From NCBI RefSeq assembly GCF_012027645.1, contig NZ_SNUU01000001.1, positions 992,001-1,056,000 on the forward strand: a stretch of DNA of 64,000 nt. Direction: 5' to 3'. Position numbers and translations under genes: made by a program. Origin of the DNA: Thermococcus sp. 18S1 (GTDB taxonomy: Archaea > Methanobacteriota_B > Thermococci > Thermococcales > Thermococcaceae). Below, one piece after another: positions 10,475 through 61,340 of the stretch. Numbering within the stretch: the first letter of the stretch is position 1; every line of letters begins with the position of its first letter. The notes beneath the pieces were generated by a model that was not told where the DNA came from, made no database searches, and saw nothing but the letters and a program-made list of their open reading frames with translations.

Positions 10475-11166
10475 TCCGAAATCCTCCCCAGCACCTCCAG
10501 AATCCCCTCAACGTCGGGAACCTCAAAGCCCCTCTCGTGGATTTTTCTGACCTCTTCGGCCTCGGGGTTTATCCAGACCGCCCACATGCCGGTTCTCAGC
10601 GCACCCTCAAAGTCCTCGGCGTAGGTGTCGCCTATGTGAATCGCCTCGTCCGGCTCGACCCCAAAGACATCCAGCGGTTTTCTGAACATCTCAGGCATCG
10701 GCTTGTAAGCGAGAACCTCGTCGGCGAAGAATGTCTTGTCTATGAAGTTCATGAGCCCGAAGCGCTCCAGCAGGAGCCGGGTGTACGAACCCGGCCAGAA
10801 CATCACGTTGCCCGTCACGGTGACCTTCAGGCCCTTTCTCTTAACGCCTTCAAGGGCTTCCTTTGCCCCAGGGAGAACTATCCCGTCATCGACCTTCAGA
10901 ACTGCCCTTGCGGCGGCCCTCTTGACGAGCTCGATATCTGTTCCCAGGAGCTCCGCCAGCATCTCCTGGCTTTCTTCGAGGGCCCTGGAGGGGTCTCCAG
11001 CCGTCTGGGCCCTCATTCGCTTTATCCTCTCGCGGGTGAGCATCATCCCCTCGACGACGTCTATAAGGCACGCCCCCATCAGCTTGGAGAGTTCAACCGC
11101 CATGGCGTCGAGCATGATGTTTATGTCCAGGAGGGTGTTCCAGACGTCGAATGAAGCGAGCTTCAT
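10471..11166 (-). CDS. HAD superfamily hydrolase
   Basis: 231 residues of haloacid dehalogenase fold with a helical cap. Motif I is FDVWNTLLD with nucleophile D7; motif II is VTVTGNV; the motif III Lys is in YKPMPEMF; motif IV is [11 protein letters not shown]. The second acidic residue of a phosphatase motif I (DxD) is Trp here, so it may not be an ordinary phosphatase; substrate unknown. I choose the ATG at 11164-11166 because a ggtggtgaat ribosome binding sequence immediately precedes it; a GTG three codons upstream lies inside that sequence. It is the last gene of a possible minus-strand group with the Toprim gene, 39 bases away. Confidence 0.85.
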
Positions 11167-50756: not shown

Positions 50757-51422
50757 TCACCTTGCACTCCCGTCCAGGTATGCTATCATGTCGCCGTCGA
50801 CTATCCGAAGGGTGGGCCCCTTGGCGAAGACGAGGGCGTGCCGCTTGTTCCGCAGCTGAATCCTTACGACGGTTGTGGCTATCTCCTCCAGCTCCGGTAT
50901 CGGGTTGGTTCTGAGGGTGGAAACCACGCTTTTGTTCAGTATGTAGAACGAGACGTGGCTCTCGTCCCCAAGCCGCTCCTTTATGGCCCCGGTCATCATG
51001 TAGAACTCGCGTTTGCTTTCAAAGAATGCGAACAGTCTCTCTATGCCGAGGGTTATATGTATGTACCTCTCACTGGGAGCCGCTTCTTTGAGGGCCTCCC
51101 TGTGCTGGTTCAGATACCTGGCGGCGTCACTCTCTATGCCTATCCTCGCCACGACGTTTCCGATGCTCTTGACCCCGCCTGTTTTTATGACGCTGACGCC
51201 TGAAAAATCCTCATCTATTCCGAGAAAACGGAGATGTTCCCTGACTACGTGAAGTGAGTCCAGGATATCGTCCACGTAAACGGGTACCCCCTTCTTTCTT
51301 CCGTACTCCGCTATCAGATGGGTCATCAGGGCGGTTCCGTAGGGGGATTCGTTCTCCACCAGGATTACGTCGCCGAAAAAGACGCTGTCCAAATACTCAT
51401 AGACCCTTTCCGTGGAAAGCAT
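50757..51422 (-). CDS. DUF257 family protein, copy 1
   Basis: 221 residues. It resembles the Thermococcales-restricted DUF257 family: GDVILVENESPYGTALMTHLIAEYGRKKGVPVYVDDILDSL, REHLRFLGIDEDFSGVSVIKTGG, NVVARIGIESDAARYL, IHITLGIERLFAFFESKREFYMM. The overall pattern recalls a RecA/KaiC-type fold without a Walker A motif. Function unknown. A paralogue lies immediately upstream (51397-52086), overlapping by 26 bases. ATG 51420-51422 follows ggaggtgat-gcttg. Confidence 0.8.
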   Translation of the reverse strand: MLSTERVYEYLDSVFFGDVILVENESPYGTALMTHLIAEYGRKKGVPVYVDDILDSLHVVREHLRFLGIDEDFSGVSVIKTGGVKSIGNVVARIGIESDAARYLNQHREALKEAAPSERYIHITLGIERLFAFFESKREFYMMTGAIKERLGDESHVSFYILNKSVVSTLRTNPIPELEEIATTVVRIQLRNKRHALVFAKGPTLRIVDGDMIAYLDGSAR

Positions 51423-52086
51423 CAAGCATCACCTCCAGGCTCACCTCGTACTCCCTCCCCAGGAGTTCCCTTACCGGTGTTTTCAGGAAGGTTACCTTTG
51501 CGCTGATCGGGGTGGGGGTTATCTCCACCACTGTGCTCGCGATGTACTCCAGCTCCGGCAGGGGGTTGAACTCCAGGGTTGAGGCCACCTCCGTGTTCAT
51601 CAGGTACGCCGCCTTTCTCTTCGTGTTTCCAAGCATCTTCTGTAGCTCTGTTATGAACAGATAGTACTCCCTGGGGCTGTGGATGAAGGCAAAGAGCCTT
51701 TCTAGGCCGAGGGCAATGTTTATGGAGTCGTTAATTTCCGCGAGTGCATTTTTCATTGTCTCCTCGTACTTTTTTATGTAAACAAGAGGCTCGGAGCTGA
51801 ACTCCACGTTGGCTATGACGTTTCCAACGTTTATCCTTCCGCCGGATTTCACGACGAGTGCATCGCTGAAGTCCTCCTCGATTCCCCAGAACCTGAGGTG
51901 CTCCTGAAGAACGTGAAGGGAATCAAAATTATCGTCTATGATTATCGGAACGTTCCTCTTCCTCCCGTACTCCATCAGCAAAAGGACGAGGAACTCGGGT
52001 GCATAGGATGGATGATACTTCACGAGAACGCTCTCCCCCGGCTGCACCGTGTCGATTACCCTGAAAAGCTCCTCGAGTTGCTCCAT
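51397..52086 (-). CDS. DUF257 family protein, copy 2
   Basis: 229 residues, paralogue of the next gene: GESVLVKYHPSYAPEFLVLLLMEYGRKRNVPIIIDDNFDSL and QEHLRFWGIEEDFSDALVVKSGG align closely with copy 1, as do LGLERLFAFIHSPREYYLF and the TVASTLEFNPLPELEYIAST C-terminal part. Both lack a Walker A motif. I use ATG 52084-52086 after ggtgag-aacc; the ATG at 52113 lies at the TATA box (tttatatca on the minus strand, about 52116-52124). First gene of the DUF257, DUF257, beta-barrel, TatD-like cluster. Confidence 0.8.
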   Translation of the reverse strand: MEQLEELFRVIDTVQPGESVLVKYHPSYAPEFLVLLLMEYGRKRNVPIIIDDNFDSLHVLQEHLRFWGIEEDFSDALVVKSGGRINVGNVIANVEFSSEPLVYIKKYEETMKNALAEINDSINIALGLERLFAFIHSPREYYLFITELQKMLGNTKRKAAYLMNTEVASTLEFNPLPELEYIASTVVEITPTPISAKVTFLKTPVRELLGREYEVSLEVMLDAFHGKGL

Positions 52087-52177
52087 GGTTCTCACCGTTG
52101 AGATTTTTACCATGGAGTGATATAAACATTTTGGGAGAATCGGGGGTTTGTGCACATGATTTGGGGTTCTAGACTGA

Positions 52178-52195
52178 ATTAAATAAAAAAACAAC
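52178..52195 (-). terminator. Terminator of the hydrogenase operon
   Basis: On the minus strand, just after the hydA stop, the sequence reads ttgtttttttatttaattc: a T7 run followed by further T-rich DNA. Confidence 0.55.
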
Positions 52196-52198
52196 GTT

Positions 52199-53446
52199 TC
52201 AGAGCTTCACCAGGTGCACGGAGCAGGAGATGCACGGGTCAAACGCCCTGACGGTCTCTTCAAGCCTTCCTATCATCGCCCTCTCGTCGGCCTCGCCGTA
52301 CAGTTTCCTTGCCTCCTCCAGCAGGCTGGCCTCTATCATCGCGTGGTTCAGCGCGGTTGGTGTTATTATGTTGGAGTAAGCGATCTTGCCGCTGGCGTCT
52401 ATTCTGTAGTGGTGTATAAGAACTCCCCTCGGGGCCTCGACGTAGCCTATTCCCTCGCCCTCCCTGGGCTCAACGGGGACGTTTTCTCCTTCGATGCCCC
52501 TATCGAGCAGGGTCTTCGCTATCTCGTTGGCCTTTTCAAGGGAATAGACCAGTTCTATCGCCTGAGCCAGGTTGTTGTAGCTGACGTAGCCGGTCTCCAG
52601 TTTCTCCCTGTGCTCCTCAAAGAGCCTCCTGGCGGTGGGTGTGAGCATCTCCGATTTGAGGAGCAACCTCGGCAGCGCTCCGACAAAGAAGGCCTCGCCC
52701 TTGTAGCGGCTCTGCTTGGCGAAGCTGTAAACGAGGGAGTGCTCCTCTATTCTTTCGGTGTAGTGGAAAGCGCCTTCCTCGTCGGATATCAGCTTTTCGC
52801 CCCATAGATAGCCGTCGGTGGCAACGAAGTGCTTTGCCTGAGCGCCGTAGGGGTCTGACTGTGCGAAGAGCCTCACAGAACGCTTGGCCAGCCGGAGAAG
52901 GGCTTCACTTTCCCTCTCTATCTCCTCCAGTTCTTCAACGGTCGGATACCTTCCAAATCCTCCCGGTTTGACGTTTATGCCGTGTATCTCCCTGCCCCCA
53001 ATCATCACCCGTATCCTGTTTCCAAAGGCTTTGAGCGCCAGTCCCTCCTTCACGAGTTCGCCGTGCTTCGTGGCCATCCTTATGGCGTCGGGATAGCCAA
53101 AGACATCCGGCGCAACGAGGAGGTACAGGTGGAGGGCATGGCTCTCAAGGAACTCCCCTATCAGACCGAGCTCCCTGAGGAGCGTTATCTCCTCCGGAAC
53201 CTCAACCCCAAAGGCCCTCTCGATTCCAAGGACTGAGGCAACGCTGTGGGAGAGGTAGCAGATGGCGCATATCCTCGCTTCAAGGTCAGGGACATCGTAA
53301 TAGTGTCTTCCCAGGGTCAGAAGCTCGAAGAAACGCGGCCCTTCGATGATCTGAAGCCTGACGTCCTTTACCTCACCGTCCTCGATGACTATCTCGGCTT
53401 TGCCGTTGCCCTCAACGCGCGTGAATTCCCGCATCTCAATTATCAT
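52199..53446 (-). CDS. hydA: Cytosolic NiFe hydrogenase (sulfhydrogenase-type), alpha large subunit
   Basis: 415 residues, catalytic subunit carrying the NiFe(CN)2CO centre. The two Cys pairs that bind it are EARICAICYLSHS near the N-terminus and FDPCISCSVH at the C-terminus; EFTRVEGNGKAEIVI is the conserved start. Only four residues (LVKL) follow the last His, the length known to be trimmed by the maturation protease in Pyrococcus hydrogenase I. Size and neighbours match the hydBGDA/shyBCDA soluble hydrogenases, closer to hydrogenase II in length. ATG 53444-53446 overlaps the hydD stop (ATGA). No maturation protease gene is nearby. Confidence 0.95.
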   Translation of the reverse strand: MIIEMREFTRVEGNGKAEIVIEDGEVKDVRLQIIEGPRFFELLTLGRHYYDVPDLEARICAICYLSHSVASVLGIERAFGVEVPEEITLLRELGLIGEFLESHALHLYLLVAPDVFGYPDAIRMATKHGELVKEGLALKAFGNRIRVMIGGREIHGINVKPGGFGRYPTVEELEEIERESEALLRLAKRSVRLFAQSDPYGAQAKHFVATDGYLWGEKLISDEEGAFHYTERIEEHSLVYSFAKQSRYKGEAFFVGALPRLLLKSEMLTPTARRLFEEHREKLETGYVSYNNLAQAIELVYSLEKANEIAKTLLDRGIEGENVPVEPREGEGIGYVEAPRGVLIHHYRIDASGKIAYSNIITPTALNHAMIEASLLEEARKLYGEADERAMIGRLEETVRAFDPCISCSVHLVKL

Positions 53447-54183
53447 GGCTCCCACCTCGCGAAGGTCTTGAACTTCCTTATGATGTACTCGTCATCGTAG
53501 CCGAGGCTCTTGAGTATCTCGTACTCGCTAGCGGGGTTCACCTCTCCGGGCAGTGGGCCTCTGCACCCTATGCATCCGAGACCCGAGCGCACGCAGACAG
53601 CTTTGCAGCCTCCGTAGGTTATCGGGCCAAGACACGGAAGGCCTTTCTTCACCAGCACACACTCGTACTCGTTGAGCTTGCACTCAAGGCAGACCGGGTA
53701 GTCCTTTCTAACGGGCTCGATGCCTTTGGCAATATCGATGAGCACCTGGTAAACTTCCTCCTTGTCGTACGGGCATCCAGGAAGGGCGAAATCAACGGCG
53801 ACGTATTCGACGACCGGTTTGGAGTCGAGGGCGCGCATCGGATTTCCGCCGTCCCCGTAAACTGCCTTAAGCTTCTCCCTGATGGGGAGTTCAACGCTGG
53901 CCTGAACAGAGCCGTGGGTTGCGCAGGTTCCGAGGGCTATGAGGTACTCCGAGTGGTTTCTCGCCTCTTTGAGAAGGTTCAGGTCGCGCTGGGTCGAGAC
54001 GGTTCCTGTTACGAGTGCAACATCGTAGTGGTTCCCCTCGCTCAGGCTGGTTGCCATGTGGAACTCGGTTATCTCGTAGAATTCGAGAAGGTCGAAGAGC
54101 TTCTCATAGAGGAAGAGCATGTTGAGGGCACAGCCGCCGCAGTCGGTAAGTTCGAAAACTGCCAACTTGAGCTTGTCCATCAT
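53443..54183 (-). CDS. hydD: Cytosolic NiFe hydrogenase, delta small subunit
   Basis: 246 residues with the three Fe-S clusters that wire the NiFe site: proximal TDCGGCALNM with GTCATHGSV and LPGCPYDKEEV; medial/distal CLECKLNEYECVLVKKG, CLGPITYGGCKAVCV and GLGCIGCRGP. ELTDCGGCALNMLF is the signature of the small subunit of the group 3b enzymes. ATG 54181-54183 follows gggggttgat; a second ATG follows directly. It overlaps the hydG stop by four bases and the hydA start by four bases. Confidence 0.94.
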   Translation of the reverse strand: MMDKLKLAVFELTDCGGCALNMLFLYEKLFDLLEFYEITEFHMATSLSEGNHYDVALVTGTVSTQRDLNLLKEARNHSEYLIALGTCATHGSVQASVELPIREKLKAVYGDGGNPMRALDSKPVVEYVAVDFALPGCPYDKEEVYQVLIDIAKGIEPVRKDYPVCLECKLNEYECVLVKKGLPCLGPITYGGCKAVCVRSGLGCIGCRGPLPGEVNPASEYEILKSLGYDDEYIIRKFKTFARWEP

Positions 54184-55055
54184 ATCAACCCCCTTGTGGA
54201 GAGAGCGTCCCAGTACGTGAAGACCGGTCCGTCCTTGCAGACGTACTTGATGGACGTGCTCGTTCCAACGATGCAGTGGCCGCACTTGCCTATCCCACAG
54301 CGCATGCGCCTTTCGAGGGTCATGTATATCCTGCCCGGTGAGAGCTTTCTGTCGAGGAGTTCCCTTATGACGAACTTGTACATGACCGGCGGACCACAGA
54401 TGAGTGCGTAGGTGTTGTTCACGTCGAACTCCTCTCCCCTAAACAGGTCGGTGACGACACCCTTGCACACCCTGTCAGAGAAGCCCCTCTCCAGATAGAT
54501 GCACGACGGGCTTTCGACCTCGTAGGCGAGCTTCACAGAGCAGTTCATGGCCTCGCCGTGCTTCAGGAGGTGTATTATCTCGTCGCGGAAGAGTATGTCC
54601 TCGTAGGCCTTGGTTCCATAGAGCAGCCAGACGTTCTCGTACTTGCCGGTGTCGATGGCGTACCAGAGCACCGAGCGGAGGGGCGCCATTCCAAGGCCGC
54701 CGGCGACAAGAATCAGGTTCGAACCTTCCATCTCCTCCATGGGGAAACCGTTTCCATAGGGCCCGCGGATTCCTATTATGTCGCCCTCCTTCATCTTGTG
54801 TATGAACTTTGTCATTCTGCCCACTTTTCTGATGCAGAGCTGGAGGTAGCCCTTTCTCGTTGGGGATGAGCATATGCTTATCGGGAACTCTCCGAAACCG
54901 CGTATGTCAACGATGACGAACTGTCCCGGCTTGAAGTTGAAGTTGGCCCCAACCTCTGGGTCGAGGAAGCGAAGTGTGAAGAGCTTTTCCCTCGATGTCA
55001 GGTCCTTCACTTCGAGAATCCTGGCGTTGTAAGTCATATACGGGTTCTCGCTCAT
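54180..55055 (-). CDS. hydG: Cytosolic NiFe hydrogenase, gamma flavin/NAD(P) subunit
   Basis: 291 residues, ferredoxin-NADP reductase fold. FAD domain: FKPGQFVIVDIRGFGEFPISICSSP; NAD(P) domain: LILVAGGLGMAPLRSVLWYA and YALICGPPVMYKFV; C-terminal [2Fe-2S] module: ERRMRCGIGKCGHCIVG with YVCKDGPVF. This subunit exchanges electrons with NAD(P)H. It overlaps hydB upstream and hydD downstream by four bases each. GTxAYEDILFRDEI is the usual linker. Nucleotide preference cannot be decided from sequence alone. Confidence 0.94.
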   Translation of the reverse strand: MSENPYMTYNARILEVKDLTSREKLFTLRFLDPEVGANFNFKPGQFVIVDIRGFGEFPISICSSPTRKGYLQLCIRKVGRMTKFIHKMKEGDIIGIRGPYGNGFPMEEMEGSNLILVAGGLGMAPLRSVLWYAIDTGKYENVWLLYGTKAYEDILFRDEIIHLLKHGEAMNCSVKLAYEVESPSCIYLERGFSDRVCKGVVTDLFRGEEFDVNNTYALICGPPVMYKFVIRELLDRKLSPGRIYMTLERRMRCGIGKCGHCIVGTSTSIKYVCKDGPVFTYWDALSTRGLI

Positions 55056-56056
55056 TTCAGGGACCCCCTAACCTCCTCAAGAACCTTGACGTGTTCTATC
55101 TTCGCCGGGCAGAACTCGTCGCATCTTCCACATCCGACGCAGTTGTAGCCCGCTGATGGGTCGAAGTAGCTCTTGCAGTAATAGCGGTGCCTGAAGCGGT
55201 CTAAACGGGTAGGTCTGAAGTTGTGGCCTCCTGCCACCAGTCCGTGGTTCTCCATGAAGCACGAGTCGTAGCGCCTCTCGCGGACTGCTTTGTACGCGTC
55301 CATCCAGCGGTCGCAGACCTCGTAGCAGCGGCACGTCGGACAGACCATGTTGCAGTTGCCGCAGGCGAGGCATATGTCCGCGTACTTCTTCCATACCGGG
55401 CTGTTGTACGCCAGATCGAGCATGTCGGCGAGGCCTTCCTGTGGAAGCTCCTTCTGGAAGGCTTTCGCCCGCTTCTCCTCGAACTCCTTGAAGTTGGCCA
55501 GGTCTTCGTCGGTCACCTCTTCAAACAGCTCACCGTTTTCCCACGCAATCTCATGACCGCGGACGCTGCCTATTCTCACAAGCCATCCGTCCGGCAGCTC
55601 GTGAAGGAACAGGTCGAAGCCGTCCATGGCGAAGTGTGTGCCGAGGCTCTTGCAGAAGCAGTACTCGTCGGGCATGCAGCTTATCCCTATTATCAGGGTC
55701 TTCTCGCGCCTGCTCTTGTAGTACGGGTCGGCGGGCTCATCGAGGTACACCTTGTCGAGTATCTTAAGACCGTGGATATCACAGGAATGGAGTCCAAAGA
55801 GGACCATCGGCTCTGCTTCTACCTCCTCTTCCCAGCGGCCGTTTTTCAGCCTGAGAATAGCTTCCCTGGGCCTGAAGAAGAACTTCTTTGGCGGGAGCAT
55901 GGTTCTGTTGTAGTCCAGCGCTATCTCCGCCGGGCTGTGCACCTCCTGGAAAGAATAGATGCTCCCCCGTTTGACGGGGGCATACATGGTACCCCATTCC
56001 CCGAGGGACTTGAAGAACTTCTCAAAGTTTTCGGAGGGCAATTTTATATATCTCAA
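55052..56056 (-). CDS. hydB: Cytosolic NiFe hydrogenase, beta Fe-S subunit (TTG start)
   Basis: 334 residues with conserved CDIHGLKILDKVYLD and CMPDEYCFCK segments and two [4Fe-4S] motifs, CLACGNCNMVCPTC and CVGCGRCDEFCPAK. Called the sulfur-reducing beta subunit in Pyrococcus. I place the start at TTG 56054-56056: ggtgat precedes it by four bases, and (M)RYIKLPSENFEKF then lines up with the start of the Pyrococcus furiosus beta subunit as I recall it. The in-frame ATG 56062 and GTG 56065 lie inside the ribosome binding sequence. First gene of the hydBGDA operon. Confidence 0.93.
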   Translation of the reverse strand: MRYIKLPSENFEKFFKSLGEWGTMYAPVKRGSIYSFQEVHSPAEIALDYNRTMLPPKKFFFRPREAILRLKNGRWEEEVEAEPMVLFGLHSCDIHGLKILDKVYLDEPADPYYKSRREKTLIIGISCMPDEYCFCKSLGTHFAMDGFDLFLHELPDGWLVRIGSVRGHEIAWENGELFEEVTDEDLANFKEFEEKRAKAFQKELPQEGLADMLDLAYNSPVWKKYADICLACGNCNMVCPTCRCYEVCDRWMDAYKAVRERRYDSCFMENHGLVAGGHNFRPTRLDRFRHRYYCKSYFDPSAGYNCVGCGRCDEFCPAKIEHVKVLEEVRGSLK

Positions 56057-56223
56057 GGGCATCACCGCCTTAAATGGGATTACAATTTTAAGTTTGTAAA
56101 GAATCGATTTAAGAATTTTTCAAACGAATGGTTACCAACCAGATGTTACAAACTTGTACTTTAGTGCACTCTTATAAACATTAAAGTTGAAACCCTTTTG
56201 AGAAAATCCCGTGGTGATGCGAG
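56057..56223. promoter_or_regulatory. Divergent control region of the hydrogenase and NuoEFG-like operons
   Basis: 167 bases of AT-rich DNA. Minus-strand TATA-like cttaaat (56107-56113) serves hydBGDA; plus-strand cttataaac (56171-56179) serves the NuoE-like operon. A SurR-type repeat lies midway. There is also a ttacaa...ttgtaa inverted pair (56080-56085 and 56094-56099) near the hydB transcription start. The plus operon has ggtgat-gcgag before its ATG. Confidence 0.7.
56131..56153. promoter_or_regulatory. SurR-type binding site, extended
   Basis: GTT-acc-AAC-cagat-GTT-aca-AAC: two GTTn3AAC palindromes separated by five bases. The published SurR consensus in Pyrococcus is GTTn3AACn5GTT, which this matches exactly and extends by a complete second palindrome. 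SurR is a redox-switch activator of hydrogenase genes in the absence of sulfur. Upstream position relative to both TATA boxes is that of an activator. Confidence 0.8.
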
Positions 56224-56688
56224 ATGGAAGCCTCGTTCGATTATATACGCTCTTATCCCCCGGAACCGAGTTCCCTAATCCCTCTTCTCCAGAGGACCCA
56301 GGAGCGCTTCGGTTACCTTCCCCGGGAGGCGCTTGAGGAGATAGCGAACTACCTCGGTGTCCCGCTCAGCAGGGTCTACGGTGTGGCAACGTTCTACGCC
56401 CAGTTCCGCTTCGAGCCCCTCGGGAAGTACGTCGTCAAAATCTGCCACGGAACGGCCTGCCACGTAAACGGCGCCGTGAACATATCCCAGGCCATAACAG
56501 AGGAGCTTGGAATTGAAGAGGGTGGGACGACGGAGGACGGGCTCGTGACGCTTGAGCGCGTCGCCTGTCTTGGATGCTGCAGCCTGGCACCGGTCATAAT
56601 GATAAACGACAAGGTCTTCGGCAAGCTCACGCCGGATAAAGTCAGGAAACTGATGAGAAAGCTAAGGGAGGGGAAGCTCGATGTCTGA
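56224..56688 (+). CDS. NuoE-like [2Fe-2S] subunit
   Basis: 154 residues: helical N-terminus (SLIPLLQRTQERFGYLPREAL), ISRVYGVATFYAQFRFEPLG-type NuoE core, and thioredoxin-like [2Fe-2S] domain with C74-x4-C79 (CHGTACHVNG) and C115-x3-C119 (CLGCCSLAP). The family forms dimers with NuoF in complex I, in NAD-reducing hydrogenases and in bifurcating formate dehydrogenases and hydrogenases. Overlaps the next gene by eight bases. First gene of the plus-strand operon facing hydBGDA. Confidence 0.94.
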   Translation: MEASFDYIRSYPPEPSSLIPLLQRTQERFGYLPREALEEIANYLGVPLSRVYGVATFYAQFRFEPLGKYVVKICHGTACHVNGAVNISQAITEELGIEEGGTTEDGLVTLERVACLGCCSLAPVIMINDKVFGKLTPDKVRKLMRKLREGKLDV

Positions 56689-58483
56689 AATCAAGGCCAT
56701 CGCAGTCGGCATGAACTCCTGTGGGATAGCTGCCGGCGCGAGGGAAACCTACGAGGCCATAAAGGCCGAGCTTGAGAAGAGAGGCCTTGATGTCAAGCTC
56801 AAGATAGTAGGCTGCGTCGGTATGTGCTACCGCGAACCCCTCGTGGACATAATCACCGATGAGGAGATAATCACCTACGGTCACGTTGATCCCAAGAAGG
56901 TTCCCCGGATTATAGAGGAGCACGTTATCAACGGAAAGCCCATAGAGGAGTGGATAGTCAAGCACGACTGGTGGGAGAACGGCGAGAGGAAGACGTGGGA
57001 CGTTGACGGCTACTTCGCCAAACAGAGGAAGATAGTGCTCGAAAACTCCGGCTACATAGACCCCGAGAACATCGACGAGTACATCTCTGCTGGAGGCTAC
57101 GAGGCGCTGAAAAAGGCCCTCAAAATGAAGCCCGAGGAGATAATAGACGTCATCATGAAGTCCGGGCTGAGGGGAAGGGGCGGTGCAGGATTCCCGACCG
57201 GTCTGAAGTGGAAGTTCGCGAGGGAGGCGAAAGGAGACATCAAATACATCGTCTGCAACGCCGACGAGGGCGACCCCGGAGCCTTTATGGACAGGAACGT
57301 CCTTGAGGGCGATCCGCACCGAGTTATTGAGGGCATGATAATCGGTGCCTACGCGATCGGAGCGACGAAGGGCTTTATCTACGTCCGTGCCGAGTACCCG
57401 CTGGCCATAAGGAGGCTGAAGATAGCGCTGAAGCAGGCGCGCGAGAGGGGGTTCCTCGGTGAGAACATCCTTGGAAGCGGCTTTTCATTCGACATCGTCA
57501 TCAAGGAAGGCGCCGGAGCGTTCGTCTGTGGTGAGGAGACTGCCCTGATAGCCTCGATAGAGGGCAAGCGCGGAATGCCGAGGCCGAGGCCGCCCTATCC
57601 GGCCCAGAAGGGTCTCTGGGGCAAGCCCACCAACATCAACAACGTGGAAACGTGGGCGAACGTGCCGTGGATAATCAAACACGGCTGGGAGGCCTACGCC
57701 TCGATAGGAACCGAGAAGAGCAAGGGAACGAAGGTCTTCGCCCTGTCAGGCAAGATAAAGCACGGCGGAAACGTTGAGGTTCCGATGGGAATGACGCTGA
57801 GAGAGATACTCTACGAGATAGGCGGAGGAACTAAGACCGGCAAGAGGATTAAGGCTGTCCAGCTCGGTGGTCCCTCTGGAGGCTGCATCCCGGAGTATCT
57901 CTTCGACACGCCCGTTGACTACGAGAGCGTGAACGCGACCGGTGCGATAATGGGGAGCGGCGGAATGGTCGTCATGGACGAGGACACCTGTATGGTCGAC
58001 GTCGCCAAGTTCTTCCTCGACTTCACAGTGAAGGAATCCTGCGGAAAGTGCACCTTCTGCCGCCTCGGAACGAAAAGGATGTGGGAAATACTGGACAAGT
58101 TCACCAAGGGCGAAGCAACGGAGGAAGACCTTGAAAAGCTCGAACGACTCGCCTATCAGGTCAAAGCTGGTTCGCTCTGCGGCCTCGGGCAGACGGCACC
58201 GAATCCCGTTCTCACAACGCTCCGCTACTTCAGGGACGAATACCTTGCCCATATCCAAAGAAAATGCCCCGCTAAGGTCTGCAAGCCGCTCATCAAGTAC
58301 GTCATCATCACCGATAGGTGCACCGGCTGTACGGCATGCGCTATATTCTGCCCGGTGAAGGCGATAAGCGGCGAGAAACTCAAGCCCCACGTCATCAACC
58401 AGGAGGAGTGCATCAAGTGCGGGACCTGCTACGAGGTGTGCCGGTTCAACGCCATAGAGATAGTCGATGCGGGGGGTGAGTGA
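56681..58483 (+). CDS. NuoF/HndC-like NAD(P)H- and FMN-binding subunit with extra ferredoxin domain
   Basis: 600 residues in the long HndC/HydB-type layout: an N-terminal thioredoxin-like [2Fe-2S] domain (1-100, with Cys 14, 45 and 49 region), NADH/FMN domain (GLRGRGGAGFPTG at 162-174, NADEGDPGAFMDRNVLEGDPH, GEETALIASIEGKRGMPRPR, GLWGKPTNINNVET), an SLBB part, the NuoF [4Fe-4S] motif (SCGKCTFCRLGT, SLCGLGQTAPNPV) and a C-terminal two-cluster ferredoxin (CTGCTACAIFCPVKA, CIKCGTCYEVCRFNA). This layout is found in electron-bifurcating enzymes. Overlaps its neighbours by a few bases on both sides. Confidence 0.95.
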   Translation: MSEIKAIAVGMNSCGIAAGARETYEAIKAELEKRGLDVKLKIVGCVGMCYREPLVDIITDEEIITYGHVDPKKVPRIIEEHVINGKPIEEWIVKHDWWENGERKTWDVDGYFAKQRKIVLENSGYIDPENIDEYISAGGYEALKKALKMKPEEIIDVIMKSGLRGRGGAGFPTGLKWKFAREAKGDIKYIVCNADEGDPGAFMDRNVLEGDPHRVIEGMIIGAYAIGATKGFIYVRAEYPLAIRRLKIALKQARERGFLGENILGSGFSFDIVIKEGAGAFVCGEETALIASIEGKRGMPRPRPPYPAQKGLWGKPTNINNVETWANVPWIIKHGWEAYASIGTEKSKGTKVFALSGKIKHGGNVEVPMGMTLREILYEIGGGTKTGKRIKAVQLGGPSGGCIPEYLFDTPVDYESVNATGAIMGSGGMVVMDEDTCMVDVAKFFLDFTVKESCGKCTFCRLGTKRMWEILDKFTKGEATEEDLEKLERLAYQVKAGSLCGLGQTAPNPVLTTLRYFRDEYLAHIQRKCPAKVCKPLIKYVIITDRCTGCTACAIFCPVKAISGEKLKPHVINQEECIKCGTCYEVCRFNAIEIVDAGGE

Positions 58484-58484
58484 A

Positions 58485-61340
58485 ATGGTCAAAATCATAG
58501 TCAACGGGAAGGAAATCGACGCCCCGGAGGGGAAGCCGCTCATAGACTTCCTCCGTGAAATCGGTGAGCACGTTCCCGGCTTCTGCTACACGAACGAGCT
58601 CGATCCCTACGGCTCCTGCAGGCTCTGTCTCGTCTCCACAAAGAGGGGAGTCACAACCTCGTGCACCCTCAAGCCGATGGAAGGGCTTGAGTTGGAGACC
58701 CTCAGCGACGAAGTCGTTTCGATGAGGAAGACGGCACTTGAGCTCATCCTTTCGGACCACTACGGCGACTGTATCGGCCCCTGTCAGGACGGCTGTCCGG
58801 CCCACAGCGACGTCCAGGGATACCTCGCACTCATAGCGATGGGCAAGTACCACGAGGCGGTCAAACTGATGAAGGAGAAGTACATCCTGCCGGCCGTGCT
58901 CGGAAGGGTCTGCCCGGCCTTCTGTGAGGACGCCTGCCGGAGAAACCTCGTGGAGGAGCCCCTCGCGATAAGGCAGCTGAAGAGATACGCGGCAGATTAC
59001 GACCTTGAGCACGGCCCGTGGATGCCCGAGATTCCGCCCTCGACCGGAAAGAGGATTGCCGTTGTCGGAGGCGGGCCGGCTGGCCTTGCCTGCGCCTACT
59101 ACCTCAGGACGATGGGTCACGAGGTCACGATAATCGAGGCGATGCCCCACCTGGGAGGGATGATGCGCTACGGCATTCCGCCCTACAGACTGCCGAGGGA
59201 CGTCTTGGACAAGGACATAGCGACCGTGATCAACACGGGAATAGAGGTGAAGATCAACACCGCCCTCGGAAGGGACGTAACCCTTGAGGAGCTCCGCGAG
59301 AAGTACGACGCGGTCTTTCTCGGCGTCGGCGCCTGGAGAAGCAGGAAAATGGGGATTCCGGGCGAGGAGCTTGAAGGCGTCATGCACGGCATAGAGTTCC
59401 TCAGGAAGGTCAACACCGGCGAAAAGGTCGAGCTCGGGGAGCGCGTCATAGTCGTCGGCGGCGGAAACACGGCCATGGACGTTGCTCGGACGGCTCTGAG
59501 GCTCGGTGCAGAGGTTACCGTCGTCTACAGGCGCTCAAAGGCAGAGATGCCCGCCAACGAGAGGGAAGTTGAAGAGGCGATGGAGGAAGGCGTTGAGTTC
59601 ATGTTCCTCACCAACCCGGTGAGAATTCTTGGGGACGGGAAGGTCGAGGAGGTAGAGCTCATCAAGATGCGCCTCGGCGAGCCGGACGCCAGCGGCAGGA
59701 GGAGGCCGATACCGATTGAGGGCTCGGAGTTTAAGGTCAAAGCGGACAACGTTATCCTTGCCATAGGCCAGTACTGCGACGAGGAGTTCCTGAAGAGCCT
59801 CGGCATCGAGGCGAGGCGCGGAAAGGCCCTCGTTGATGAGGTGACGCTCCAGACGAGCGTTCCCGGCGTCTTCGCCGGCGGCGACCTCGTCCTCGGGCCG
59901 TCAACGGTCATCGAGAGCATAGCCACCGGAAGAAGGGCCGCGATAATGATAGACTTGTATCTTAAAGGCAAGTTGGAGAAGGTTAAAGCCGTTCTCACCG
60001 AGCCCGAAAAGCACATCGAGGAAGTTCTGAGCGACGACGACCTGTACAGGGTTCTCTTCGACCTCAGGCCCTACAACCACTGGAAGAAAGTCACCGAGAA
60101 GGACTACGAGAGCGTTGAAAGAAAGCCGAGGGCGAAGGTGAAGCTCCTCGATCCAGAAAAGAGGAGGAGAACCTTCGAGGAGGTCGAACCGGCCCTAACC
60201 GAGGAGCAGGTTCTTGAGGAGGCCCAGCGCTGTATGAGCTGTGGCTGTATGGAGGTCTTCCGCTGCAAGCTGAGGGAGTATGCAACGCTCTACGGTGCCG
60301 AACAGTACGCCTTCGAGGGCGAGGGGAACAAGTTCGAGATAGATGAAAGCCACCCGTGGGTGACGCTCGACAACAACAAGTGCGTCCTCTGCGGCCAGTG
60401 CGTCAACTTCACCCACGAGATAGCCGGAGAGGGAGTCCTTGACTACCTGTTCCGTGGATTCAAGACGAGGATCTCGCCGCCGCTCGGGGAGAGCCTTGGA
60501 GACATGGAGGGCAGGTTCATCGGGGAGATGATAGACCTCTGTCCTGTCGGAGCAATAACCGAGAAGCTTCCGTTCGTCAAGCCCGGGCCCTGGAAGACGA
60601 AGCCCGTCAAAACCGTTTGCAACGGCTGTTCCTTCGCCTGCGAGATGAACGTGGAGATCTACGACGGCATGCTCGTGAGGGCTTCGAGGGTGGAAGGTTC
60701 ATGGAACGGCCACCTCTGCGACTACTGCCGTTTCGCCAGGCCATGGGCCGAAGACCTCGCCGGGCCGCTCCTCAACGGCGAACCTGTGGGCTGGGAAGAG
60801 GCCAAGAAGTTCCTCTCCGAGAGGAGCTATGCCCTGATCTTAACACCGGAGCTGACAAACGAAGAAATCGCCCGGCTCAAGGCCTTCGCTGAGGAGAGGG
60901 GTATTCCAATAGGCTCGACCGTTAGCGGAGGCATCTCCACGGCCACGCTGGACGACATAAGGAACGCCAAGAGGGTTCTCCTGAAGGCGGACCCCGAGAA
61001 GTTCCCGCTGCTCAAGATACTCCTGAAGGGCAAGGAAATCGTCGAGGAGGGCTACGACGTTGCGATACTTGAGGGGGGAGAGCCTCTCGACGTTCCAACG
61101 CTGATCCTCCATGAGGGGGTCAATGCTGCCGGACTGCTGAAGGCAGGAGTAACGGGAATCCCGGAGAGCGATGCATACGTCGTGGTCGGAAGGCCGGTGG
61201 AGGACCTGAAGGGCGACGTCCTCGTGGTCCCAGCGGGGGTGTGGGCCGAGAAGAGCGGAACCGTCACCAACGCCTTCGGAATGGAGCTGAAAATGGAGAG
61301 GGCGAGGGAAGGCTACTCGCCGCTGGAGCTTTTCTCGTGA
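58485..61340 (+). CDS. NuoG/GltD fusion: multi-Fe-S flavoprotein subunit
   Basis: 951 residues. Residues 1-80: [2Fe-2S] ferredoxin (C34, C45, C48, C60). Residues 90-155: GltD/NfnB-type Cys motifs (CIGPCQDGCPAH; CPAFCEDACRR). Residues 188-490: FAD and NAD(P) Rossmann domains (GGGPAGLACAYYL at 195, VIVVGGGNTAMDVART at 321, GDLVLGPSTVIES). Residues 583-690: [4Fe-4S] clusters (CMSCGCMEVFRC, CVLCGQCVNF, LCPVGAI). Residues 712-750: NuoG-type CNGCSFACEMNV. The last 200 residues are a shortened molybdopterin-like domain with EKSGTVTNAFG but no catalytic subdomain. So it is an electron-transfer subunit, not a formate dehydrogenase. ATG 58485 follows ggtgagtga. Confidence 0.93.
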   Translation: MVKIIVNGKEIDAPEGKPLIDFLREIGEHVPGFCYTNELDPYGSCRLCLVSTKRGVTTSCTLKPMEGLELETLSDEVVSMRKTALELILSDHYGDCIGPCQDGCPAHSDVQGYLALIAMGKYHEAVKLMKEKYILPAVLGRVCPAFCEDACRRNLVEEPLAIRQLKRYAADYDLEHGPWMPEIPPSTGKRIAVVGGGPAGLACAYYLRTMGHEVTIIEAMPHLGGMMRYGIPPYRLPRDVLDKDIATVINTGIEVKINTALGRDVTLEELREKYDAVFLGVGAWRSRKMGIPGEELEGVMHGIEFLRKVNTGEKVELGERVIVVGGGNTAMDVARTALRLGAEVTVVYRRSKAEMPANEREVEEAMEEGVEFMFLTNPVRILGDGKVEEVELIKMRLGEPDASGRRRPIPIEGSEFKVKADNVILAIGQYCDEEFLKSLGIEARRGKALVDEVTLQTSVPGVFAGGDLVLGPSTVIESIATGRRAAIMIDLYLKGKLEKVKAVLTEPEKHIEEVLSDDDLYRVLFDLRPYNHWKKVTEKDYESVERKPRAKVKLLDPEKRRRTFEEVEPALTEEQVLEEAQRCMSCGCMEVFRCKLREYATLYGAEQYAFEGEGNKFEIDESHPWVTLDNNKCVLCGQCVNFTHEIAGEGVLDYLFRGFKTRISPPLGESLGDMEGRFIGEMIDLCPVGAITEKLPFVKPGPWKTKPVKTVCNGCSFACEMNVEIYDGMLVRASRVEGSWNGHLCDYCRFARPWAEDLAGPLLNGEPVGWEEAKKFLSERSYALILTPELTNEEIARLKAFAEERGIPIGSTVSGGISTATLDDIRNAKRVLLKADPEKFPLLKILLKGKEIVEEGYDVAILEGGEPLDVPTLILHEGVNAAGLLKAGVTGIPESDAYVVVGRPVEDLKGDVLVVPAGVWAEKSGTVTNAFGMELKMERAREGYSPLELFS

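Follow-up and report, generated by a model that had tools for sequence, protein, structure and literature searches.

A predicted SurR operator array between the divergent sulfhydrogenase II and electron-bifurcating transhydrogenase operons of Thermococcus sp. 18S1

Introduction

In the 64-kb stretch of Thermococcus sp. 18S1 DNA analysed here (the window), a hydrogenase operon and an operon of NuoEFG-like genes run away from each other, and the 158-bp region that separates them carries a palindromic sequence of the SurR type. This arrangement raises the question whether a single regulator switches both operons in response to sulfur and what the two gene products have to do with each other. The initial annotation proposed that one SurR assembly, bound to a symmetric 23-base site, serves both promoters and that the NuoEFG-like proteins belong with the hydrogenase. 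The SurR motif has been defined as GTTn3AAC, with the long form GTTn3AACn5GTT (PMC10025317, PMC8595942, PMC12401011), and SurR sites upstream of the BRE/TATA elements activate whereas those overlapping them repress (as summarised in PMC12401011). We determined the identity of the two operons, delineated the site between them and followed the locus through 94 genomes of the family, which were queried with the NuoE-like protein and the hydrogenase beta subunit and from which the intergenic regions were extracted and aligned.

Results and discussion

Identity of the divergent operons

The leftward operon encodes sulfhydrogenase II (SHII, ShyBCDA), as all four of its subunits scored above the curated cut-offs for this enzyme and below the SHI models. 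The genes on the two sides of the intergenic region were as follows:

55052-56065, minus strand: shyB, sulfhydrogenase II beta subunit (NCBIfam NF040829, 700.2 bits, cut-off 690)
54180-55055, minus strand: shyC, sulfhydrogenase II gamma subunit (NCBIfam NF040830, 632.6 bits, cut-off 600)
53443-54285, minus strand: shyD, sulfhydrogenase II delta subunit (NCBIfam NF040831, 486.6 bits, cut-off 460)
52199-53455, minus strand: shyA, sulfhydrogenase II alpha (NiFe) subunit (NCBIfam NF040828, 797.7 bits, cut-off 700)
56224-56688, plus strand: bfuC / nfnC, NuoE-like (phmmer to PDB 9n5u_C, NfnC, E=2.6e-84; Pfam 2Fe-2S_thioredx)
56681-58483, plus strand: bfuB / nfnB, NuoF-like (phmmer to PDB 9n5u_B, NfnB, 1274 bits)
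58467-61340, plus strand: bfuA / nfnA, 'NuoG-like' (phmmer to PDB 9n5u_A, NfnA, 1789 bits; Pfam)

The true start of shyD probably lies near 54180, the family match of its product beginning at residue 39. Downstream of the hydrogenase operon, two related-looking ORFs were observed on the minus strand at 50757-52194, and the one that was tested had no NCBIfam match.

On the rightward side, BfuA, BfuB and BfuC were all present and colinear and matched NfnA, NfnB and NfnC of the structure 9n5u from end to end. BfuA carries a 2Fe-2S domain, a GltD-like NADP(H)/FAD region (Fer4_20 and Pyr_redox_2) and an Nqo3-like Fe-S domain in Pfam, and also matches the large subunit of NfnI (5jca). Judged by these matches, the rightward operon encodes Nfn-BfuABC (NfnABC), an electron-bifurcating transhydrogenase. 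Its T. sibiricus counterpart, which has the same three subunits end to end, has proved active by itself after purification, NADPH reducing ferredoxin only when NAD+ is present (PMC9304861; PDB 9n5u). An identity as complex I (NuoEFG) was rejected, the scores staying under the cut-offs for NuoF (TIGR01959, 510.5 of 558.65 bits) and NuoG (155.5 of 470 bits); the NuoF-like protein does pass another NuoF model, NF010120.

A five-half-site array between two TATA-like boxes

The 23-base element singled out in the initial annotation proved to match the SurR consensus exactly and to complete a second GTTn3AAC palindrome, and the gap of about 17 bases that had been given from either edge to the nearest predicted TATA box is exactly 17 bases on both strands. 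The site is of the SurR type as proposed; its extent had been underestimated, because it comprises five half-sites in 31 bp rather than four. The elements of the intergenic region, in order of position, were:

56092-56100, unstranded: GTTTGTAAA, one base short of GTTn3AAC (from the alignment)
56106-56113, minus strand: TATA-like box of the hydrogenase (shyB) promoter, CTTAAATC (from the sequence; kept where shyB is present and lost where it is not)
56123-56125, unstranded: fifth half-site AAC, on the hydrogenase side (pattern match; invariant in 31 of 31 distinct arrays)
56123-56153, unstranded: predicted SurR operator array of five half-sites, AACn5GTTn3AACn5GTTn3AAC, 31 bp (from the sequence, pattern matches and footprint)
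56131-56153, unstranded: the 23-mer GTTaccAACcagatGTTacaAAC (identical to GTTACCAACCAGATGTTACAAAC), two complete GTTn3AAC palindromes spaced 14 bp from centre to centre
56155-56169, plus strand: conserved element TGTACTTTAGTGCAC (consensus TRTRCTTYARTGYRC), 15 bp (from the alignment, in all Nfn-Bfu promoters aligned)
56171-56178, plus strand: TATA-like box of the Nfn-Bfu promoter, CTTATAAA (from the sequence; TTATAA in all aligned Nfn-Bfu promoters)

The additional AAC lies in phase, five bases upstream of the 23-mer and nine bases from the hydrogenase TATA box, and with it the array holds the long SurR motif three times, in overlapping copies read in either direction, at 56123-39, 56131-47 and 56137-53. 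The 23-mer and the two TATA boxes are laid out in mirror symmetry about position 56142. The array is upstream of both predicted TATA boxes and overlaps neither, which is the published activating position.

We compared the array with shuffled and control sequences. GTTn3AACn5GTTn3AAC was unique within the window and appeared in none of 100 dinucleotide shuffles of it. When the 158-bp intergenic region itself was shuffled in the same way, the longest run of in-phase perfect half-sites was four, reached in 3 of 20,000 shuffles, and five were not obtained in any of the 20,000. Across the whole genome the long motif had 34 occurrences and the control pattern 11, and the four-half-site pattern was found at two places, the same number as its reversed control. 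The other of these two matches (L013, G000:C1:833125-833147) is located shortly upstream of a glycosyltransferase gene. Since the four-half-site pattern is no commoner than its control, its occurrence alone is unconvincing and it is conservation that convinces.

Conservation of the array and of SurR

The initial annotation had suggested looking for the element between the same operons in other Thermococcus genomes, and it is indeed conserved in dozens of relatives. The set comprised 45 Nfn-Bfu promoters from 44 genomes, G051 having two, and one further case, G066, which was counted as probable as its contig stops short of the partner gene. All 46 arrays match at least 14 of the 15 fixed positions, and 37 of them match all 15. 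Among the 31 distinct 31-mers, 14 of the 15 fixed bases are invariant, the exception being T56133, which is T or G, and the commonest base reaches a mean frequency of 0.985 in the half-sites against 0.617 in the spacers; these arrays are related sequences, so that the values describe a footprint and not independent trials. A chance origin of the array is ruled out by this conservation.

The proposal also presupposed a surR gene, and the source genome encodes SurR. The ORF at G000:C1:1284683-1285390 on the minus strand (L015; 236 aa) matches P. furiosus PF0095 (PDB 2qlz) with E=2.9e-91 in phmmer, carries its CxxC motif as CTEC in the N-terminal part and is divergent from its usual neighbour, the gene of a glutaredoxin-like protein disulfide oxidoreductase (PDO); the region between them holds SurR motifs. 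SurR was present in 92 of the 94 family genomes and in 74 of the 74 of high quality. The source genome has 29 HTH_5-type matches, and two ORFs chosen from this list by frame length (L011 and L012; 221 and 187 aa) were rejected as SurR candidates, being devoid of SurR features.

Loss and exchange of the partner enzymes

Some genomes lack one of the two operons. Nfn-Bfu occurs without an adjoining SHII beta gene in five genomes (G018, G024, G027, G049 and G057); in all five the array is perfect at 15 of 15 positions and the hydrogenase TATA box is gone. At 22 SHII loci, the divergent position of Nfn-Bfu is occupied by NfnAB, an unrelated complex. SurR half-sites at these 22 loci match 12-14 of the 15 positions, with a longest perfect run of two to four, the score being the best array match anywhere in the first 160 bp and therefore generous for the weakest NfnAB loci. 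NfnAB of this type and Nfn-Bfu were found together in 0 of the 94 genomes, a mutual exclusion reported earlier in PMC9304861. G018 (G018:C1:871545-872295; L095, L201) retains 59 residues of the beta gene, interrupted by a stop, beside Nfn-Bfu and an intact array.

The partner label requires eight changes on the hydrogenase beta tree of 61 SHII rows, and at least five are forced by well-supported branches, the tree being a quick one and some of the genomes metagenome bins, with G063 apparently mixed. In G063 (L081 / L034) the beta subunit is 78% and the NuoE protein 98% identical to that of the window, with a spacer of 252 bp, which may represent either recombination at the locus or mixing within the metagenome bin. 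The beta genes of G074, which has NfnAB, and G077, which has Nfn-Bfu, are 96% identical; the intergenic regions of the two can be aligned gap-free across the array and the element that follows, and diverge at about the Nfn-Bfu TATA box. This alignment suggests that Nfn-Bfu was replaced in place by NfnAB in this lineage, the direction being indicated by the decayed piece of the Nfn-Bfu promoter that the NfnAB genome G074 has. Some of the other partner switches may have come about by transfer of the whole locus.

This exchangeability bears on the claim that the NuoEFG-like proteins belong with the hydrogenase, which holds in the sense of a co-regulated NADP(H) partner and fails in the sense of a hydrogenase module or set of subunits. 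That they serve the hydrogenase as its NAD(H) module, in one complex built from two operons, would agree with their tight and conserved neighbourhood, with the common operator and with the use of NuoEF-like subunits by other hydrogenases. We regard it as scarcely credible, as each of the three subunits has a match in NfnABC, a stand-alone complex of solved structure, the T. sibiricus enzyme functions by itself (PMC9304861) and the hydrogenase has an NAD(P)H subunit of its own in shyC. Nfn-Bfu has moreover been kept in five genomes without the hydrogenase and replaced by the unrelated NfnAB at 22 SHII loci, which argues for a partner and not for subunits.

Model of regulation and alternative readings

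The position of the array upstream of both TATA boxes makes co-activation by reduced SurR, with loss of activation on sulfur, the simplest reading. In this model, reduced SurR, prevailing when elemental sulfur is lacking, would bind the array of five half-sites that lies between the TATA boxes and would activate both divergent promoters, that of shyBCDA to the left and that of Nfn-BfuABC to the right. The product of the former would act on H2 and NADP(H), and that of the latter would link NADPH, NADH and ferredoxin. Sulfur would oxidise the CxxC motif of SurR, so that binding is lost and both operons fall. We strongly favour this bidirectional operator, at which reduced SurR activates both operons, and we infer that SurR binds there, that it activates rather than represses and that more than one dimer is loaded. 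Two dimers, if both bind, would sit about 120 degrees apart on the helix, given centres 14 bp apart. Against co-activation stands the fact that some NfnAB loci keep only two or three perfect half-sites.

Published transcriptomes bear on the joint response to sulfur that the initial annotation foresaw. In RNA-seq of Palaeococcus pacificus, the hydrogenase genes PAP_01490-01505 were down 2.66-3.20 fold with sulfur and 'complex I' PAP_01510-01525 was slightly down (PMC6981617). Around the site, the genome G002, taken as P. pacificus, shows four ORFs of hydrogenase size to the left and ORFs of 164, 600, 971 and 173 aa to the right, and its array differs at one base. By this gene order, the 'complex I' is very probably Nfn-Bfu together with a nitroreductase-like gene. 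The nitroreductase-like gene itself (L205; G002, 10607-11128) follows bfuA. The expected joint response is thus clearly borne out for the hydrogenase, Nfn-Bfu being only slightly down. Less favourable to the model, the action of SurR and sulfur in deep-sea Thermococcus is described as less simple than in P. furiosus (PMC12401011), and shII was up 18-fold at 70 MPa with sulfur in a study that compared a surR mutant (PMC12162507).

The slight effect of sulfur on P. pacificus Nfn-Bfu, along with the fact that common intergenic regions often serve one side, would fit control by SurR of one operon only, the other merely adjoining the site. We hold this to be unlikely, as the array stays at 15 of 15 positions in the five genomes where the hydrogenase has been lost and Nfn-Bfu is left, loci that have lost Nfn-Bfu retain half-sites beside the hydrogenase, and the spacing to both TATA boxes is equal. 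SurR could also activate one operon and repress the other, since it is known to do both depending on site position. We take PF1327-1328 of P. furiosus to be NfnI, in which case the partner at a sister arrangement would respond to sulfur in the direction opposite to SHII. These genes are quoted in PMC6981617 as up on sulfur, with SHII down. Such opposite control appears distinctly improbable at the present locus, where the site is equidistant upstream of both TATA boxes and overlaps neither, and both operons were down with sulfur in P. pacificus. The binding of SurR to the array is itself predicted from sequence, 29 HTH_5-type matches exist in the genome and two more conserved elements flank the array, and another ArsR-type or unrelated regulator could therefore occupy the site. 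Set against this are the match to a motif defined for SurR in three overlapping frames and the occurrence of SurR in every high-quality genome, which make a different regulator very improbable. Co-activation of both operons by reduced SurR is thus the reading that we retain.

A broader proposal, which we advance tentatively and with some doubt, is that the array acts as a conserved regulatory socket: the unrelated bifurcating NADPH enzymes NfnAB and Nfn-BfuABC would have been swapped at least five times beside SHII, each coming under SurR, and the five half-sites would load at least two SurR dimers in one sulfur-sensitive assembly that switches both promoters.

Comparison with known systems

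The closest known arrangement is that of SHII and NfnI in T. piezophilus, for which Table 2 of PMC8595942 lists long motifs at 69 bp (SHII) and 72 bp (NfnI) and consecutive locus tags. It resembles the present locus in having the same hydrogenase, a divergent layout and a SurR motif between SHII and Nfn-type operons, and differs in that the partner is NfnAB and one long motif is listed, in place of Nfn-BfuABC and five half-sites. The accessible text of that paper does not discuss the site as a common one, and we pair the two motifs on account of the locus tags and of relatives arranged in this way. The promoters of surR-pdo, mbh and mbs (Lipscomb 2009, 2017, via citing papers) have the same half-sites and spacings, and that of surR-pdo is likewise a divergent common region, with SurR motifs in the source genome as well; by comparison, three overlapping long motifs occur in the source genome only at 56123-56153. 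A hydrogenase operon also faces an oxidoreductase operon where SHI (sh) is divergent from Fdh3/nfd or fhl (Groups 2-3, PMC10025317); these regions differ, as PMC10025317 reports no SurR site in its Groups 2-4. Similarly, GTTn3AAC was not found upstream of the second hydrogenase beta gene of the source genome (L199, G000:C1:1518176-1519189), which is 59% identical to shyB.

Nfn-Bfu was not reported as a SurR target in the open literature searched; the SurR studies of Lipscomb 2009/2017, Yang 2010 and Hidese 2017 may list the site. The accessible text of the T. sibiricus paper (PMC9304861) mentions neither SurR nor a hydrogenase neighbour nor the exchange with NfnAB at one locus. With the present locus, Nfn-Bfu, a recently characterised bifurcating class, would enter the sulfur-response regulon of the Thermococcales, and the genes behind the 'complex I' of a published transcriptome would be identified. 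The locus also offers a clean case of non-homologous enzymes swapped in place under one conserved operator, and this exchange argues that selection keeps the pairing of SHII with an NADPH-linked bifurcating enzyme. The natural mutants described here, in which one partner is lost, a half-site is changed or fewer half-sites are present, are suited to tests of a symmetric archaeal operator driving two promoters.

Two conserved elements accompany the array. The element TGTACTTTAGTGCAC is positioned between the array and the Nfn-Bfu TATA box, at the position of a BRE, and has a single exact copy in the genome. We also considered its consensus TRTRCTTYARTGYRC as a genome-wide motif and discarded it, since with one exact copy only no regulon can be defined. 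On the opposite side, GTTTGTAAA is conserved in the hydrogenase promoter, between the TATA box and the expected start.
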